Shown here: positions 1,915 through 13,663 of the stretch, piece after piece
Position numbering within the stretch: position 1 is the stretch's first letter
Layout: the number at the start of each line of letters is the position of its first letter
IMG/VR virus record: IMGVR_UViG_3300029397_000034
Coordinates: 1-22,206 of that record
Reading direction: 5' to 3' (one strand)
DNA from: a virus
Length of the DNA: 22,206 nt
Made by a program: the position numbers and the translations under genes
The notes under the pieces: generated by a model
Told to the model about the DNA's origin: nothing
The model's database searches: none
Seen by the model: the letters and a program-made list of their open reading frames with translations, nothing else

Positions 1915-1990
1915 ATTTTCCCCAATGAAATCAATTGGTTATGTTGATTTCATGTGACGCTGGGCAAAAAATTGGGCAAAAATTGATTTT
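1890..1990 (+). other. Probable attL: tRNA 3' end plus phage arm repeats
   Basis: The tRNA-Gly 3' end is followed by phage-like AT-rich DNA. Just after it is an inverted repeat, TGAAATCAA (1926-1934) and TTGATTTCA (1944-1952), then a direct repeat GGGCAAAAA at 1962-1970 and 1974-1982. Such short repeats between a tRNA end and a tyrosine integrase gene fit core and arm sites of an attachment region. The crossover limits cannot be fixed because I see no second copy of the tRNA 3' end in the window. Confidence 0.5.
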
Positions 1991-2076
1991 GAGCGTCGGC
2001 AGCTATATGATCAGCACTCAACGTGCGCATTACGCGTAAGAGCCGCTGATGCCATCAGGCCGCTCAGCACACCAAG

Positions 2077-2104
2077 AAAAAGCCACTCATCGAGTGGCTT
2101 TTTT
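2077..2104. terminator. Bidirectional intrinsic terminator after integrase
   Basis: A perfect 7-bp stem GCCACTC/GAGTGGC (2082-2088, 2092-2098) with a 3-nt loop is flanked by A5 on the left and T6 on the right, so it can terminate both the leftward integrase transcript and rightward transcripts from the tRNA side. Confidence 0.85.
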
Positions 2105-2120
2105 GTTTCCAGGACTGGAC

Positions 2121-4966: not shown

Positions 4967-6255
4967 TTGAGATCGAGAAATAGTTGTTCCATTTCGGCCT
5001 TAGCCTGCTCATCGAGAGCAGGCCGCGGAGTTTGCCTTAGCGCTGTAGATGCGAGAATCGATTGCACATACGATTCATCGCGCTGTAGTGCGATGCGCGC
5101 GTCTTCGGAGACCCCCATAGATAAAGGTTCTCCCGTTTGGAAAATTCTTATGGCATCGTTGACTGCCTGCATGTTTTCTGGCGTATCAATCAGATGAAAT
5201 TGAAACCAGCCTGAAGAGCTAGTCGGCACAAGACGTCCAACCCTGAGCGTCACTAGATTTGTGTATTGGAGTGCAGCTTCGGTGCTTGCACGAATCATTT
5301 TTTTATCACGCAGGGTTTCTAGGAGTCTTACCGGTAAGCGAATTGCAAACTGGCTGGGGAGGAGCTGACCCTTACGAACGGCGGCAACAATGGCCATTGT
5401 CCTCTCGTAGATCTCGCGTGCAGCTCCGTCCATTGAACGAACACCAGGCATTGGTGTAAAAACAAAATGCTCATCGCGATTTGTTTGAGTATTTCTTAAG
5501 CTAGGAGGACGGAGAACACCGTCTGCAACCATTTCTTTGAGCAACTGCAGCTCTGTGGCACTCAGCTTGGTACCGTTGATTCCACCGGTACTTATGATCA
5601 AAGACAGCGGCCAACCTTGGGCCTTTTTGAGGAGTTCTAGAACTGCTTGAACCCCTCGGGCTCCTCCGGCTGCAGCATGATTCGCGAGCGCATCCAAGCT
5701 ATCCGCAAAGTAGAAAGGACTCACTAAAACGTCTTGTCCACGAGCTCTCTTGGGAATTACTAGGCCACCAGTCTGAGTGATAAGTTCTACACGTGAAAAG
5801 ACCTGTTTTTGCGCCCCCAGCCTTCCCATCAGTGCGTCGCGCTTTTCCGGCTTTCTCTTAAGCTCATTCAATACTGCTATTGCTACTTCCTCATGCTCGT
5901 TGAGGCTAATTGTCCCAACATAGTTGCCTAGTCCGCTATAGACGGACGAAAAGTGAGGAACATCTGGAATGATTGAGTTGAGTGTCTTGCCTGTTGTTAC
6001 AAGTTGTACGTATCCGATTTCTGCAAGGATCTCCAAGACCGGCTGCAACACAAGAGATGGAATGTCAAAGTAGTGGTCAGCAACGGGTCTCAAGACTTCC
6101 GCTTTGATCTCGCCCAAGCCCCTGATGTTTAGAGCTAGCTTCCCGGCCATTCCAATTAATGGGAGGTTCGCGAACTCCGGAACGCTAGCCCGAGCTAAGC
6201 CAACCTGCAAGTCATGTGCGAATTCCGCTTTCACTTGATTCGATGTCACCGTCAT
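4963..6255 (-). CDS. Unknown 430-residue protein, first gene of the nuclease-linked cassette
   Basis: A complete gene with an AAGGA-type ribosome binding site about 8 nt before the ATG (complement of 6253-6255). I do not recognise the family. No signal peptide, transmembrane helix, P-loop or catalytic motif is visible. The protein has several segments of the form helix-helix-two strands that look like winged helices: about 68-100 (LQPVLEILAEIGYVQLV), the segment LKEMVADGVLRP followed by HFVFTPMPG, and RLLETLRDKKMIRAS followed by LVTLRVGRLVP. This would suit a DNA-binding or target-sensing subunit. It overlaps the nuclease-like gene by 4 nt and both are likely made in a fixed ratio. Function is unassigned; a defence or regulatory role is inference from the pairing. 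Confidence 0.6.
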   Translation of the reverse strand: MTVTSNQVKAEFAHDLQVGLARASVPEFANLPLIGMAGKLALNIRGLGEIKAEVLRPVADHYFDIPSLVLQPVLEILAEIGYVQLVTTGKTLNSIIPDVPHFSSVYSGLGNYVGTISLNEHEEVAIAVLNELKRKPEKRDALMGRLGAQKQVFSRVELITQTGGLVIPKRARGQDVLVSPFYFADSLDALANHAAAGGARGVQAVLELLKKAQGWPLSLIISTGGINGTKLSATELQLLKEMVADGVLRPPSLRNTQTNRDEHFVFTPMPGVRSMDGAAREIYERTMAIVAAVRKGQLLPSQFAIRLPVRLLETLRDKKMIRASTEAALQYTNLVTLRVGRLVPTSSSGWFQFHLIDTPENMQAVNDAIRIFQTGEPLSMGVSEDARIALQRDESYVQSILASTALRQTPRPALDEQAKAEMEQLFLDLK

Positions 6256-6356
6256 CTCTTATCCTTTGATACTTTTTATTACTCTCATTCTATGGTTGAA
6301 ATGTGACTCGAAGCTATCAGCGGACTACACACGCTTTAGTGAGTTGCGGCTATCAG

Positions 6357-6381
6357 TCAAGCATACCTAAACTATGCTTGA
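6357..6381. promoter_or_regulatory. 9-bp inverted repeat between DNA-binding gene and nuclease cassette
   Basis: TCAAGCATA (6357-6365) and TATGCTTGA (6373-6381) are perfect inverted copies with a 7-nt spacer, overlapping the last codons of the leftward small DNA-binding gene. A T7 tract follows on the plus strand only, so it could terminate rightward RNA. On the minus strand there is no T tract and a TTGACT box lies in one arm, so an operator controlling the nuclease cassette is equally possible. Confidence 0.5.
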
Positions 6382-6725
6382 TCTTTTTTTGTGACCCTTG
6401 ATGGTGCTCTACGAGAAGCCGCTGCAGCTGGAGATGAAAACTGATCGAGCAAGTGCTCGTCTAGCTGCGTAGCGTCAAGATCCTGAGCTTGGATGATCTC
6501 TACTGGGTTGACGGGGCGTGATTTGAGATCATCAATCAATCGGCGCATAGCAATCTCGATGAGTAAGTACGTCTGGCCGTCCGCAACTTCTTTGAGTTCT
6601 TGGTACAGCGATTCGCGAAGCCGTAAGAGATGAGGGCGCCGGCCGCGGGTTTCGCCTCGACCGACAACAACCAAGCGCAAGCCTTTTTCCGCTTCATCAG
6701 CGCCAGCTTTCTTCTTTGTAGCCAT
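6372..6725 (-). CDS. Small basic protein, ribbon-helix-helix-like
   Basis: A 117-residue protein beginning MATKKKAGADEAEKGLRL. The start is fixed by a consensus AGGAGG six bases upstream of the ATG (complement of 6723-6725). The core reads GRRPHLLRLRESLYQELKEV followed by the helix YLLIEIAMRRLIDDLK. A basic strand followed by two helices is typical of ribbon-helix-helix (Arc/CopG/MetJ) regulators, but the match is not strong enough for a family name. The C-terminus is acidic then Ser/Ala/Arg-rich. It lies 52 bp downstream of the polymerase gene and probably shares its transcript; the inverted repeat overlapping its stop is a natural candidate binding site. A replication accessory role is also possible. 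Confidence 0.6.
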   Translation of the reverse strand: MATKKKAGADEAEKGLRLVVVGRGETRGRRPHLLRLRESLYQELKEVADGQTYLLIEIAMRRLIDDLKSRPVNPVEIIQAQDLDATQLDEHLLDQFSSPAAAASRRAPSRVTKKDQA

Positions 6726-6777
6726 AAAATACCTCCTTGATTTCAGGTGGTACTCTACAGTATCAGTTGCTATCAGC

Positions 6778-9012
6778 TCATGACCAATGTTTTCCCGTTG
6801 TGACATCGACAGATGCTGGTATTCCATATGCAGCAAATACCGATTCCTCCGCAGCAAGCATGGCACGTTGCACCTCAGCTGCTGCATCATCAGCATCACA
6901 TTCTGGAACACACAGAACCAGCTCATCATGAACGACATTGATAAGATGCCTGAGCACAGATGGATTCATGCCGTCAATTGCATCAATGATGATGTCAGCG
7001 CCGCTTCCTTGGCACTCGTAATTGAGCAGTTGCAGAGGGTTAGTCGCAACAACTGTTCGACCACTCAATGTTGACCCGCTAACAATCCGAGCGCCAGCAA
7101 CTGCGAACGTCCCGTCATACATGCGCGTGAAAATTTCCTCGCGTGGTGCGTCGTTGAACATACGTCTGTGATCGTCATGCAGCTGACCAATTTCCGGGTA
7201 CATAGAGAACCATGCGGCTCTAGCCGCAGCGGCCTCATCGATAGTCCATACGAGTCCGAATGCGAGTCGGCCGTACTCCCAGAATGCCTCATCTGACATT
7301 CCGTAGAGCAACCCAAAATTCTGCGCTTTTGCTGTGTCGCGTTCGATACTGAATTGCTCGCGCAGCTGTGTCCTGACATCGTCTGCCATGCCTGTGATAA
7401 ATGCTGCGGCATTGCCATCAAACGATAGATCACCACGCATCTGAATGGTCTGTGTTGCTGTAACGAGATGAGGATCAATGCCGTTTCTAAGTGCCGTGGC
7501 TAACATTCCAGGTTGTCCAGCGCCATCACGCATTTTTTCCGCGTAGCAAGCTGCAATACGCAGCTCGATTTGGCTGTAGTCCGCGCTAATAATCACGTGC
7601 CCAGCAGGTGCTACGACAGCTGACCTAAGCCTGCGGTCCATAGCCATGGCAGCGGGCTTTTTTGCAGTGAGTCGGCCTGTCGCTGTGTCGTAGCCAAACA
7701 CAGGGTGTACGCGGCCATCCGAACCAACAGACGCCAGCATTTCATCGCATGCGGCCAGGTTGCGGCGGGTATCACATAGATCACGCCAGGCAACCACGCC
7801 CGGTAGTGAGATAGCGCCGTTTTTTGATAGTGCCTTTTGACTAATGAGTGGCACACCACTATCGCCAGTATCAAGTTCAATCCCAGCACCTGCAACATAG
7901 CTACCGATTGCACGCCGGATGTCATCATTCGCACCGCCAGACAGTGTCGATATGCGTGACCGCATAGGCGCTAGCGTTGGTATATGGCCAATAACAGCAT
8001 CTGATGCAGTAGCAACACCGGCCGCAGCACCGCCTCTAATCTCTGCCAGCACATCAGCGTCAACCGGTATTCCGTTCGCACCCAGCCGTGCTAGATTCAC
8101 AGGGAGCATCGAGCCTAGCACCTTGTCACCAGGCATCAGATCCATTGCATTCATGGCACCACGGACGGCGCTCGTGTAGTGCCACTGGCTCAGCGGCGCG
8201 ACGCACCAAATCCTTCCGTGCCAATCACCAGCACCAGCAAGGTCGTACTGATGCCCAGTACCGCGCATTAGCGCCAACATTGATGCTGGCGGCGATGCTT
8301 TTCCATGTGAACGGATTGCATTAGCGGCGACATCGTCATACACAGCGGCCATTGACGCATCGTAGAGACGTGCTGGGTCTTGATATCGCACATGTAAGAG
8401 CGGGTCGTATATCTCACCTGGTTCTAGATCGCGTGTTCCTGCCGCATGCATAGCCCATGTCAGCAGCTCCGCTGCGTTGTAGCAGTAAACTCTATTGAAA
8501 TTGATACTATCTGATATCAAAGCATGTATAGCAAATCGATCCAGTGCATCCAGATCCCATACCATCACGCCGTACGCTGTGCCGACAACCCAGACCCGCA
8601 GCCTGGTTGCACTATCAACCTCAGCATTGGAACCAGCCACCTGCGCCAGCTGCCGATATCTGCGCCAATCGCAGCCAGGTCCAATTTCAGTAGCATTGCC
8701 AATTGCCAGCGGCCTAGAGCTGGGTGCATCAGCTGTAGCCCGGAACGACAGACACACATAATCAGAATCTAGGATCCGCTGTTTCATCGCTGACGAATAC
8801 TCAGTCAAAAACCCAGTATTTTCGAAAACGAAATCCTTTTCGTTCGCGAACAGTATTCGCCGGCGCTTTTCTTCGATATCGATATTTTTCGATGACGAGA
8901 TGGTTCGCTGAGTCGATGTGTTTTTCGTTGACGTGATGCTGTTTCGTTGACGCTTGATGCGTTCGATATCGAAACTGGACATTTCGTTAGCGTTAAATGC
9001 AGTTTTTGCCAT
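6778..9012 (-). CDS. Phage DNA polymerase, family A (Pol I type)
   Basis: A 744-residue replicative polymerase. Palm and finger motifs are intact: motif A DYSQIELR (D478), motif B RDTAKAQNFGLLYG (R558 to G571) and motif C VHDE (D696). The N-terminal region resembles the 3'-5' exonuclease domain of Pol I-like phage enzymes, with YNAAELLTWAM (179-187) and IYDPLLHVRYQDP (201-213) at the ExoII/III-like positions. The ExoI D-x-E is replaced by S89-F90-R91 in DYVCLSFRAT, so proofreading is probably lost. The first ~75 residues are low-complexity, rich in Ser, Lys and Arg. The ATG (complement of 9010-9012) has only a weak GGGG upstream and lies inside the end of a 32-codon leader ORF, suggesting coupled translation. 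It lies downstream of the primase-helicase gene. Confidence 0.93.
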   Translation of the reverse strand: MAKTAFNANEMSSFDIERIKRQRNSITSTKNTSTQRTISSSKNIDIEEKRRRILFANEKDFVFENTGFLTEYSSAMKQRILDSDYVCLSFRATADAPSSRPLAIGNATEIGPGCDWRRYRQLAQVAGSNAEVDSATRLRVWVVGTAYGVMVWDLDALDRFAIHALISDSINFNRVYCYNAAELLTWAMHAAGTRDLEPGEIYDPLLHVRYQDPARLYDASMAAVYDDVAANAIRSHGKASPPASMLALMRGTGHQYDLAGAGDWHGRIWCVAPLSQWHYTSAVRGAMNAMDLMPGDKVLGSMLPVNLARLGANGIPVDADVLAEIRGGAAAGVATASDAVIGHIPTLAPMRSRISTLSGGANDDIRRAIGSYVAGAGIELDTGDSGVPLISQKALSKNGAISLPGVVAWRDLCDTRRNLAACDEMLASVGSDGRVHPVFGYDTATGRLTAKKPAAMAMDRRLRSAVVAPAGHVIISADYSQIELRIAACYAEKMRDGAGQPGMLATALRNGIDPHLVTATQTIQMRGDLSFDGNAAAFITGMADDVRTQLREQFSIERDTAKAQNFGLLYGMSDEAFWEYGRLAFGLVWTIDEAAAARAAWFSMYPEIGQLHDDHRRMFNDAPREEIFTRMYDGTFAVAGARIVSGSTLSGRTVVATNPLQLLNYECQGSGADIIIDAIDGMNPSVLRHLINVVHDELVLCVPECDADDAAAEVQRAMLAAEESVFAAYGIPASVDVTTGKHWS

Positions 9013-9091
9013 GGCTACCCCAGAATAATTGTTGCATTATTAAAATTGAGGATATATAATTGGCATATCCATCCCAGATGGTTTTTTGCAT
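8993..9091 (-). CDS. 32-codon leader ORF overlapping the polymerase start
   Basis: The minus strand reads GGAGG, five bases, then ATG (complement of 9089-9091), and continues as MQKTIWDGYANYISSILIMQ plus QLFWGSHGKNCI before a TAA at 8993-8995. The polymerase ATG at 9012 lies six codons before this stop in another frame. The leader's ribosome binding site is far stronger than that of the polymerase, so ribosomes reaching its stop could reinitiate at the polymerase gene, as in plasmid rep leader peptides such as Tap of IncFII. The peptide itself has no recognisable domain. That it is translated is inference from the ribosome binding site and overlap. Confidence 0.5.
   Translation of the reverse strand: MQKTIWDGYANYISSILIMQQLFWGSHGKNCI
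9032..9060 (+). promoter_or_regulatory. Candidate promoter for antisense RNA
   Basis: On the plus strand a perfect TATAAT (9055-9060) lies 17 bases after TTGCAT (9032-9037). It faces against the polymerase operon and toward the terminator at 9119-9157. The -35 box matches consensus at three positions. Confidence 0.45.
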
Positions 9092-9157
9092 ATACTCCTC
9101 CCTGTGTTTCAGCACAGTTAGCCCCGACAGTGTGTAGCTGCCGGGGCTATTTTTTTT
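9067..9157 (+). ncRNA. Candidate antisense RNA against the polymerase leader
   Basis: Starting from the TATAAT at 9055-9060 and ending at the strong terminator, a plus-strand RNA of about 90 nt would be made. It contains CTCCTCC (9095-9101, within ATACTCCTCCCTG), exactly complementary to the leader ORF ribosome binding site, and covers its start codon. Two further small stem-loops are visible: CCATC/GATGG (9069-9081) and CTGTG/CACAG (9102-9117). This is the arrangement of plasmid copy-number antisense RNAs, which act on a leader ORF coupled to the replication gene. The existence of the RNA is inferred from promoter and terminator signals only. Confidence 0.45.
9119..9157 (+). terminator. Intrinsic terminator, rightward
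   Basis: TAGCCCCG (9119-9126) pairs with CGGGGCTA (9142-9149), with an inner CAG/CTG extension past one mismatch and a 7-nt loop, followed by T8 (9150-9157). The T tract exists only on the plus strand, although the flanking genes are on the minus strand. Confidence 0.8.
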
Positions 9158-9225
9158 ATCCGGCACAATTCAATTATCAGTCTCAGAAGGGTTTTTTGTT
9201 CCTTCTTGGGCTTGATAACAGTGTT

Positions 9226-11706
9226 TTATTTGGCATTCATAACAGAAACGTTAGAATTACTATTGTATTCTTCATCGTTTGCGGCTGACAGAGATTCAGT
9301 CTGCTTATTGGACAGTGGTATCTCCACGCATCTTCTCGAAACACTGCTAATTGATTGGGATGTTTTCACAGTTTTTGCGCCAGCTATTTTCAAGCTGTGC
9401 TTCAGTGATTTCGTATCCAAAAACATCGTTTTAACGAGCTGCAATGCGGATTCAGGGTGAATGAACAGACGTTCCTTCCCGATGTGCCTGACAATATTCT
9501 TTCCGTTTTTTTCGTACGGAGTATCAACTTTTAAACCGTACAATCCGAGAGCATTTTGATATCTACCTAAACGACCTGCTTGCTCTTCATGAATTGCTTC
9601 TGCTACTGCTGTGGCCACTGTATGCATTTTGCCATCAACAAAAATGTGAGCTGCCATCAGTGTATCGATTGCATTTCCGCTAGTCATGGCATCATTGATT
9701 CGATTTTTTTGCTCATCAAATTCAATCGATTTAACCAGTGCTTTAGCTTCGATTTCACTGAGCTCGCCTTCATTCATGGCTACCCATGATGCCGCCACAA
9801 TGGGTGTGAACGTATCCAAAAATCTGCTTGAGCCGGCCATGCATTTTCGAATTACCTTTTCAGCGGCGACAAGTCGTTGCCATGAGTTGATCATGCGCAT
9901 AAACAACCGCCTACCAATTTTTTGGACTTCCTTTTTATCTAGTGCTTCTCTGCTAGCTAAGAGATGAATTTCCTGCCCCTCAGCGAGTGGATCTATTTCA
10001 ATGCATAGAAATCTGGACTCGTCTGCGGGCGTCATGTTGGGTGGTGTAATTCCTGCAACCATCCCCATAGAGCGGAGCACAAACCGTTTGCGGTCGTGTG
10101 TTTGCGTGCCCTTATCTCCAACAGCCCCATCCGAGCAGCTTCTCAAAAACACCAGAAGGTCTTTGGTCTTTTGAGCTGCTTTTTCTGTATCTGACTCTGC
10201 TTCACCAACAATAACAGCAATGGCGTCTTGATTTAGACCTTGCATGATACCTATTGCAGTGCTCTGGGAGCCTTCAAGATAAATGCACGCCTTCCCAAGA
10301 AGATTTGCAAATGCATTTTGCAGAGTGGTTTTACCTGATCCAGCAGGTGCTGTTAATGATGCGTGAGGGCGCCATGGGGCTGCTGCAGCCAAGTAACTTA
10401 ACATCAACCATCCGAACATCAAAGTACGATCCGAGACGCTGCGGAAATTCCACGTACCCATTCCGTCGAACACAAATTTGGCGTCCTCTGCAGTGCCAAC
10501 TTCTGAATCAGGCGTAATTCCAAGAGAGATTGAAGCCTGGTAGATGCGGTCATCTTCATTTTTTACGCGATCCGCAGCCGTTCCATCCGCGTTCCAAAAA
10601 TGTTCCGCGCTGTTAATTGATATTCCACCGTTAACGTTCATCCACACACCGGAACCGCACAACATGTCGGGATTAAAAATTCCGGCTTTATCGCATCGGC
10701 TGATCAAATCCCCGCCCATCCTGGTGAAATTGACTGTTGTCGTGGCTGTTTTGGGGCTTGTTTCACCATATTCGGCCACACAATAGTCATATCCACCAAC
10801 GATATTCATCAATTCAGCAGGCGAGGTGGAGTCTTTTCCGGCGAGAGCATAGACCTGATTTTTTGAGATGGACCAGACGTAATTTGTGCGGTCCTTGTAG
10901 CCAAGTGCTTCGTAACCTCCACCACTTTTGGCTTTGATGCGCTTCATCTCTGTGTTCCACGTGTGGTTCAGTAGGCCGCGGACATTTTCAGTGCCAGCGT
11001 TTACGATCCAGTCATCGAGACCCTGTTTTTCAGATATTTTTTTGCGCCCCTCTTGCGTAACCTTAGCTGGCACACGTGCATACATAACAGGGATATCCAG
11101 AGCGCATTTGAGCGCTCCAGTGAACGCATTCATAGCATTCGAAACCAAGATGTTTTCGCTAGCATCGCTGTCCGCTAGCACAATAACCCCTGCTGCGCAC
11201 ATTGCATCTATCGCATCCAGGATTTCGCCGTCGATCGCGCTATCAGCCCCCAGTGATCCAACCCCGTCTGACCACATTGTGACTCCAGGGATAGCGATTG
11301 TAGGGATGCCGATAGATGTAGCTGCTGCTGCTTTAAATTCACCCTCTGTGATAACAATAAATGGCGCCCCGATAGCGCTCAATTGCGCAGCATCGTATGG
11401 GATGTACGGCATTGCACACGCTCCGCTGCGACCGATATAGCGTTGGTGCTTTTTCCCGGCTAGCTCATTATCAGTTCTGGCATCGATCACGCGGAATCGC
11501 ACGTGCTGTGTGCCATCTTCGTTGATAAATGGGGATCCGTCGATATTCATATAGGGAATGCGGATGGCATCCCCAGCAACTCCACCAACCATCCCGAGTT
11601 CATTCGCGGCAGCCGCAGCTGAGACCGTTTCGAATTGGTTGTCACTCGCAGTTTTAGTGTCGATGGCCCTTTTTGCCAAGAAAGTAGCATGTTCATTGTT
11701 CAGCAT
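9226..11706 (-). CDS. Phage primase-helicase (Toprim-like domain plus P-loop ATPase)
   Basis: An 826-residue replication protein. Residues ~100-200 show a Toprim/DUF3854-like nucleotidyl-transfer core: FIVITEGEFKA with E121/E123, then VIVLADSDAS with D179 and D181. Residues ~260-680 are a helicase domain of the DUF927 kind with Walker A APAGSGKTT (453-461). At the Walker B position the sequence is IAVIVGEAESD, with E502 but no preceding aspartate. A segment CSDGAVGDKG and an MVAGITPPN sensor-like strand follow. The last ~60 residues are low-complexity, rich in Ser, Lys and Asn. GGAG about 8 nt before the ATG (complement of 11704-11706) supports the start. It would prime and unwind DNA for the downstream polymerase and is probably first in the leftward replication operon that begins near the repeat region. 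Confidence 0.85.
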   Translation of the reverse strand: MLNNEHATFLAKRAIDTKTASDNQFETVSAAAAANELGMVGGVAGDAIRIPYMNIDGSPFINEDGTQHVRFRVIDARTDNELAGKKHQRYIGRSGACAMPYIPYDAAQLSAIGAPFIVITEGEFKAAAATSIGIPTIAIPGVTMWSDGVGSLGADSAIDGEILDAIDAMCAAGVIVLADSDASENILVSNAMNAFTGALKCALDIPVMYARVPAKVTQEGRKKISEKQGLDDWIVNAGTENVRGLLNHTWNTEMKRIKAKSGGGYEALGYKDRTNYVWSISKNQVYALAGKDSTSPAELMNIVGGYDYCVAEYGETSPKTATTTVNFTRMGGDLISRCDKAGIFNPDMLCGSGVWMNVNGGISINSAEHFWNADGTAADRVKNEDDRIYQASISLGITPDSEVGTAEDAKFVFDGMGTWNFRSVSDRTLMFGWLMLSYLAAAAPWRPHASLTAPAGSGKTTLQNAFANLLGKACIYLEGSQSTAIGIMQGLNQDAIAVIVGEAESDTEKAAQKTKDLLVFLRSCSDGAVGDKGTQTHDRKRFVLRSMGMVAGITPPNMTPADESRFLCIEIDPLAEGQEIHLLASREALDKKEVQKIGRRLFMRMINSWQRLVAAEKVIRKCMAGSSRFLDTFTPIVAASWVAMNEGELSEIEAKALVKSIEFDEQKNRINDAMTSGNAIDTLMAAHIFVDGKMHTVATAVAEAIHEEQAGRLGRYQNALGLYGLKVDTPYEKNGKNIVRHIGKERLFIHPESALQLVKTMFLDTKSLKHSLKIAGAKTVKTSQSISSVSRRCVEIPLSNKQTESLSAANDEEYNSNSNVSVMNAK

Positions 11707-12781: not shown

Positions 12782-13194
12782 GCGAGACAGGATACTTAAA
12801 CAGCACACCGATGTGCAATTACCAAGCTTTCGCGCTTCATATTATTTACAGTGCTGTGCTCGATATTGCTAAACGCGATAGCGCGAGACTTCTAGTCCAT
12901 AAAAAATCTGAGGCCATCCGTGCAGTCGAATGGCTGAATGGTGGACCAGCTATGTTTCCATGCAGCCTAGCGTGCGACATTATCAATATTGATATTAATT
13001 CGTTGCGCCAGCGTATTGCAGATGTGGGTGAGCTCTATTTAGATGCAGACAAGCTGCATATGCCGAAACGCATTAATAGTGCAGCACTAAGGAAAATGGC
13101 TGACTCAATGCAACGAGCAGCATTGAGAATAATCGACTACCGCGGCCAGGCAACTAATGAGAAAATAGATGAATATGACAACGATTGCATTTAA
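12778..13194 (+). CDS. Hypothetical phage protein between RuvC and Ntn hydrolase
   Basis: A 138-residue protein I do not recognise. The start is coupled to the RuvC-like stop by an ATGA overlap. It is largely helical, and the middle reads SLACDIINIDINSLRQRIAD, which has the shape of a helix-turn-helix with the pattern of a second helix entering the groove. This is preceded by AIRAVEWLNGG, like phage proteins that carry a short DNA-binding segment. The C-terminus is acidic and polar. The position before the terminase genes suggests a role in late gene control or packaging, but that is inference from context only. Confidence 0.6.
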   Translation: MSETGYLNSTPMCNYQAFALHIIYSAVLDIAKRDSARLLVHKKSEAIRAVEWLNGGPAMFPCSLACDIINIDINSLRQRIADVGELYLDADKLHMPKRINSAALRKMADSMQRAALRIIDYRGQATNEKIDEYDNDCI

Positions 13195-13663
13195 AAATGG
13201 TGTGCTGGCGGCGGATTCAATGGCCTGCATCGGTAACAGAAAATCGACAACGAAAAAAATCCACATCGTTGACGGTAAATTCGTCATCGCGGGCGCTGGA
13301 GCGCTCGCGGACATTATGCGCGTTGTCGAATATGTTCACGAGAACGGACTGAGTGAATGCACCAGGCTGTTTGATATTGAAGCTTTTCCATCAGCTATTG
13401 CAATCGATATTAATAGCGGCACGCCGTACCGTCTCGAGCGCGGTGTCTGGCTAGCTATTACCGATGAATATTACGCCGTTGGCTCCGGCGCGGATTTCGC
13501 GCTTGGAGCTATGGCTATGGGTGCTGACGCTGTAGCTGCTGTGCAACATGCATGCAGCCTGGACATCTATACCGCTGAGCCTGTGGAGTGCTATGCGTTA
13601 GACAAGGGGGAACCTGATGGCAACAAGAAAAACAACGACGAAAAAAGCGCCAGCAGCTCCTAA
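13175..13663 (+). CDS. Proteasome-like (HslV-type) Ntn hydrolase
   Basis: A 162-residue protein of the Ntn-hydrolase fold used by proteasome beta subunits and HslV. From the ATG at 13175 it reads MTTIAFKNGVLAADSM. After Met removal Thr1 would be the N-terminal nucleophile, Asp13 matches Asp17 of HslV, and the lysine pair in STTKKIHIV matches Lys33 and its neighbour. The later YAVGSGADFALGAMAMGADA is the classic strand and helix of the fold. The upstream in-frame ATG at 13169 would add Met-Asn before it and block the nucleophile unless processed, so I prefer 13175. Such proteins occur near the terminase genes of some phages, perhaps as a head-maturation or host-directed protease; substrate unknown. 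The 3' end overlaps the small terminase gene by 47 nt. Confidence 0.75.
   Translation: MTTIAFKNGVLAADSMACIGNRKSTTKKIHIVDGKFVIAGAGALADIMRVVEYVHENGLSECTRLFDIEAFPSAIAIDINSGTPYRLERGVWLAITDEYYAVGSGADFALGAMAMGADAVAAVQHACSLDIYTAEPVECYALDKGEPDGNKKNNDEKSASSS

Follow-up and report, generated by a model that had tools for sequence, protein, structure and literature searches.

Between two genes that a prophage transcribes in the same direction, a primase gene and the DNA polymerase gene that follows it, there lies a promoter and a terminator that both point the other way, and the question raised by this locus is what they could be doing there. The window analysed, a stretch of 22,206 nucleotides, is part of a prophage integrated beside tRNA-Gly(CCC), and the host ctaA-type gene that adjoins the prophage has its best matches in the Comamonadaceae. 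As had been read from the letters alone, both neighbouring genes run opposite to the candidate RNA: a phage DNA primase/helicase gene (11706-9226, minus strand; phrog_35358 DNA primase, 2.4e-48) lies 5' of the gene for a family-A phage DNA polymerase (9012-6778, minus strand; Pfam DNA_pol_A, 2.8e-32; phrog_17, 7e-50), the presumed target, and the gap of 213 bases between them holds most of the elements that this sequence-only reading had listed, at the positions it gave. On balance, the sequence favours a cis-antisense RNA gene opposite the polymerase leader that would lower polymerase production, probably an RNA that puts a brake on phage replication and has not been listed before. Elsewhere in the window, an HslV-family peptidase-like gene (13169-13663, plus strand; phrog_1040, 1.5e-39) immediately precedes the small terminase gene. 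The conservation of a 188-aa ORF (6372-6938, minus strand) is limited to its last ~87 residues (99% in a related phage, L082, and 92% in a related prophage, L337), so that the real gene start probably lies well inside the ORF.

The antisense promoter consists of TTGCAT (9032-9037), a 17-bp spacer and TATAAT (9055-9060) on the plus strand, as first noticed by eye, and in a sigma-70 weight-matrix scan of both strands of the window, using approximate E. coli frequencies, it ranked first of 44,400 positions. With a -35 that fits the consensus at only three of six positions, it escapes a simple consensus scan. A terminator with T8 had been placed about 60 bases beyond the promoter, and the hairpin (9119-9149) of an intrinsic terminator does start 58 bases after the -10; together with its T tract (9150-9157) it is the strongest found in the window (-20.0 kcal/mol). 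When a promoter-terminator pair was defined as two such elements 40-150 nt apart at a set cut-off, the window contained two pairs against 0.2 expected per shuffled 22-kb window, other phage loci contained 0.014 per kb and strand (728 kb), and a pair as strong as the 9032-9157 unit occurred once in 100 shuffles. The second promoter-terminator unit (1983-2110, plus strand; TTGATT-17-TATGAT, ~92 nt, terminator -16.6) is situated between tRNA-Gly and the integrase gene and is conserved in L337, at 16613 to 16497 on the minus strand; it is a candidate small RNA beside the attachment site. Some other signals were set aside: antisense terminator-like sites at 7658 and 10180, inside the polymerase and primase genes respectively, have no counterpart in L337, and two promoters, one in the sense direction at 9291-9262 (rank 9) and one on the plus strand at 9252 (rank 6), are apparently unconserved there on comparison by eye.

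Transcription from 9032-9060 would begin about 7 nt after the -10 and give an RNA of ~91-92 nt (9066-9157, plus strand), antisense to the primase-polymerase junction and the polymerase 5' leader. The predicted minimum free energy is -31.6 kcal/mol, with a z of -5.35 against shuffles and of -5.59 for the L337 counterpart. Several stem-loops had been expected in this RNA and the fold prediction gives three, namely stem-loop 1 (CCATC-CCA-GATGG, 9069-9081), stem-loop 2 (CTGTG-TTTCAG-CACAG, 9102-9117) and the terminator hairpin. Between the first two is CTCCTCC (9095-9101; ACTCC in L337), predicted to be single-stranded, which is indeed the exact complement of the ribosome binding site of a short leader ORF, as it must be because the RNA is cis-antisense. 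The sole ATG-started frame noticed inside the RNA (ATG near 9078, ~19 codons) has no Shine-Dalgarno (SD) sequence and is not kept in L337. As a promoter-terminator unit opposite a phage gene and without an ORF of its own, the element would class with phage cis-antisense RNAs of the OOP/sar type. No Rfam family matched the window RNA at gathering score, a match to anti-hemB being on the sense strand and below threshold (19.4 of 49.5 bits). A covariance model gave strong matches to the window and L337 only, and when 53 Comamonas/Delftia-genus genomes were searched with an earlier version of it, which had one spurious pair, no further convincing copy turned up.

The RNA gene is probably real, because a distant relative in which the surroundings have diverged still has its promoter, terminator and folds. 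Relatives were sought via polymerase, primase and terminase in IMG/VR, in phage and plasmid records and in ~1,300 genomes (mostly Burkholderiales), and among the databases searched only L337 (60-70%), L082 and a third record, L164, had a primase-polymerase pair close enough for comparison. L337 is a prophage from the Comamonas/Delftia genus at the same tRNA-integrase site and was the sole find of a whole-genome search of that genus; its polymerase is 60% and its primase 70% identical to those of the window. Across the junction, where aligned identity is 58%, the antisense strand of L337 carries TTGCAG-17-TATAAT at the aligned place (rank 2 of 39,988 in a weight-matrix scan), giving a common promoter core of TTGCA-N18-TATAAT, and a terminator of -18.8 kcal/mol followed by TTTTGTTTTTT, the second strongest in L337. 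Identity is high in the -10 (100%, TATAAT 6/6), the T tract (88%), the -35 (83%), stem-loop 2 (75%) and the terminator (71%), and low in the spacer (35%), in 9013-9031 (42%), in 9061-9101 (44%) and upstream (57%). The conservation of stem pairs among related phages had been suggested as a check, and between the window and L337 four of 21 base pairs carry a change in both partners and all the pairs are preserved, the covariation being drawn from two sequences because a single close homologue was found. One of these pairs is in stem-loop 1, the pairing of which is aligned in L337, one is a U-A to A-U double change that preserves stem-loop 2 (CAGTG-GATCAG-CACTG in L337) and two are in the terminator stem. 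Compensatory changes alone are silent on the acting strand, because DNA stems fold on both strands, and the strand was therefore assigned from the promoter and the U-tract. In a neutral simulation to 57% identity none of 3,000 trials retained both promoter and terminator, and at 75% identity both were retained in 0.13%, figures that apply to independent sites with indels ignored and to a region picked after the window had been seen.

More distant relatives offer a less regular picture. L082 is a phage with flanks 97-99% identical to the window, with 97% DNA identity on one side, a primase of 42% and a polymerase of 32% identity, and its replication module has been swapped as a block between the near-identical flanks (5184-11706 of the window, 1-7294 of L082). 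The antisense strand of its junction has a modest promoter (TTGATT-17-TACAGT, score 9.0) and a hairpin of -18.5, and shares a homologous-looking GTGTTTCAGC-plus-hairpin motif with the window; its U-tract is interrupted (TTTTGGTCGTTTT). In L164 (primase 33%) the single promoter-terminator unit in 12.6 kb, TTGCCG-18-TACAAT followed by CGCCTCCGG...CCGGAGGCG-TTTTTATTT, is antisense over the 5' end codons of the polymerase gene, within the reading frame and not 5' of its start. These two cases are supporting and not independent proof, because the polymerase start was examined only after the window had been seen. Within 2.5 kb around the match or upstream of it, none of 80 remote phage polymerase loci had an antisense unit, and such a unit is therefore rejected as a general property of phage polymerases. 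A further phage, L254 (polymerase 26%), has no antisense unit between primase and polymerase; a small HTH-like ORF (3761-3948 of L254) lies there, at a place where other phages have an antisense unit or little DNA. It may tentatively be suggested that a temperate phage family has an antisense RNA dedicated to restraining the replicative DNA polymerase that it encodes, the unit being kept while the proteins diverged to 30-60% identity and shifting between leader and coding positions, which would amount to plasmid-like dosage control in a prophage.

The sequence-only reading had gone further, in proposing that the logic of IncFII-type plasmids is applied to the polymerase. Of that proposal the antisense RNA is supported, by conserved promoter, terminator and stem-loops, but the leader peptide is not, its start and SD being lost in L337. 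The leader ORF (MQKTIWDGYANYISSILIMQQLFWGSHGKNCI; 8993-9091, minus strand) is a real reading frame in this phage and was correctly described: it has 32 codons, begins with the ATG at 9091 five bases after GGAGG (9101-9097) and reaches 20 bases into the polymerase gene, which is read in a different frame. A full relay, in which the antisense RNA keeps the leader from being translated and polymerase translation needs ribosomes ending the leader at the polymerase start, draws support from this arrangement and from the predicted fold of the sense RNA of the window, in which the leader SD is paired with a downstream CCUC. It is also in keeping with L337, where an open leader frame runs from a GTG to an end 7 nt short of a polymerase ATG without an SD. 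Yet the leader ATG and GGAGG are absent from L337, the GGAG that is present having no suitably spaced start codon after it, and amino-acid similarity in the leader frame, with some similar residues (NYI-S/T-S), is at chance (P ~0.12 under random change of equal amount), so that the leader peptide is rejected as a conserved gene. An SD-plus-start scan of L082 and L164 yielded no leader candidate, and the window polymerase has an SD-like sequence of its own, GGGG. The relay is thus an unlikely account of the locus and could be peculiar to this single phage at most. Translational coupling through the leader ORF may be an addition here; the ORF is not an essential part, because the related prophage lacks its start codon.

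It is also improbable that the hairpins serve the processing or stability of the sense mRNA between primase and polymerase, with the antisense promoter being incidental. The stems do form in the sense strand too, and in L082 a hairpin comes right after the primase stop, but the sense hairpin has no U-tract, and such an element would require neither a U-tract on the antisense side nor a TTGCA-N18-TATAAT conserved although its spacer has diverged. That the terminator merely stops stray antisense transcription, or that the promoter acts through transcription interference and not through an RNA product, would suit a convergent promoter within an operon and an RNA without conserved protein coding but is very unlikely, as a pure insulator requires no promoter and interference could do without the conservation of the stem-loops that lie between the two elements.

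The preferred reading therefore remains a cis-antisense RNA directed at the polymerase leader. The elements, their statistical strength and their in-register conservation with compensatory changes invite a model of transcription, pairing and repression, and of the direction and timing of control, that would run as follows. A plus-strand RNA would be made from the promoter at 9032-9060 and ended by the intrinsic terminator at about 9157, and its three stem-loops would meet mirror-image folds in the polymerase leader. Once paired, the RNA would mask the leader SD region and form an RNA-RNA duplex open to RNase III, and polymerase output from the primase-polymerase message would drop until sense transcription outran the antisense RNA; such control would presumably depend on the lysogenic state. 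In the window fold the polymerase GGGG is partly free; when the antisense-covered stretch is blocked it becomes paired, and the switch that this predicts, hiding GGGG upon antisense binding, is missing in L337 and so is not relied on. If expressed, the RNA would provide a small, portable case for how a prophage silences its replication proteins in the lysogen and frees them upon induction, and one more unlisted RNA family.

Control of plasmid replication by antisense RNAs is textbook knowledge, and a few phage examples control lysis-lysogeny genes. In plasmid R1, CopA inhibits RepA through prevention of Tap translation (PMC12779154), and the resemblance of the present locus to the CopA/CopT-Tap-RepA system of the IncFII group lies in an RNA of ~90 nt with stem-loops, opposite the leader of a replication gene and with its own promoter and terminator, all predicted here, and, in this phage, in a short leader ORF that runs into the gene start. 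The target differs, being a prophage family-A DNA polymerase (DNA_pol_A) and not a RepA initiator, the leader ORF is not conserved and there is no Rfam family match, so that the element falls outside the IncFII system, although by analogy it may work like plasmid CopA. Phage-encoded cis-antisense RNAs are a recognised class in a catalogue of phage-derived sRNAs (PMC12197685), in the main text of which the word 'polymerase' is absent, and a search of open-licence papers found no antisense RNA against a phage replicative polymerase. Lambda OOP, which acts via RNase III on cII mRNA (PMC12197685, PMC5415839), and P22 sar are likewise small RNAs of phages that have a promoter of their own and are antisense to a regulatory phage gene, but their targets are cII and ant, whereas the target here would be the replication polymerase, and no Rfam family is matched. 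Judged by its sequence features, the element is best placed among the phage cis-antisense RNAs, as a new one whose target is unusual.
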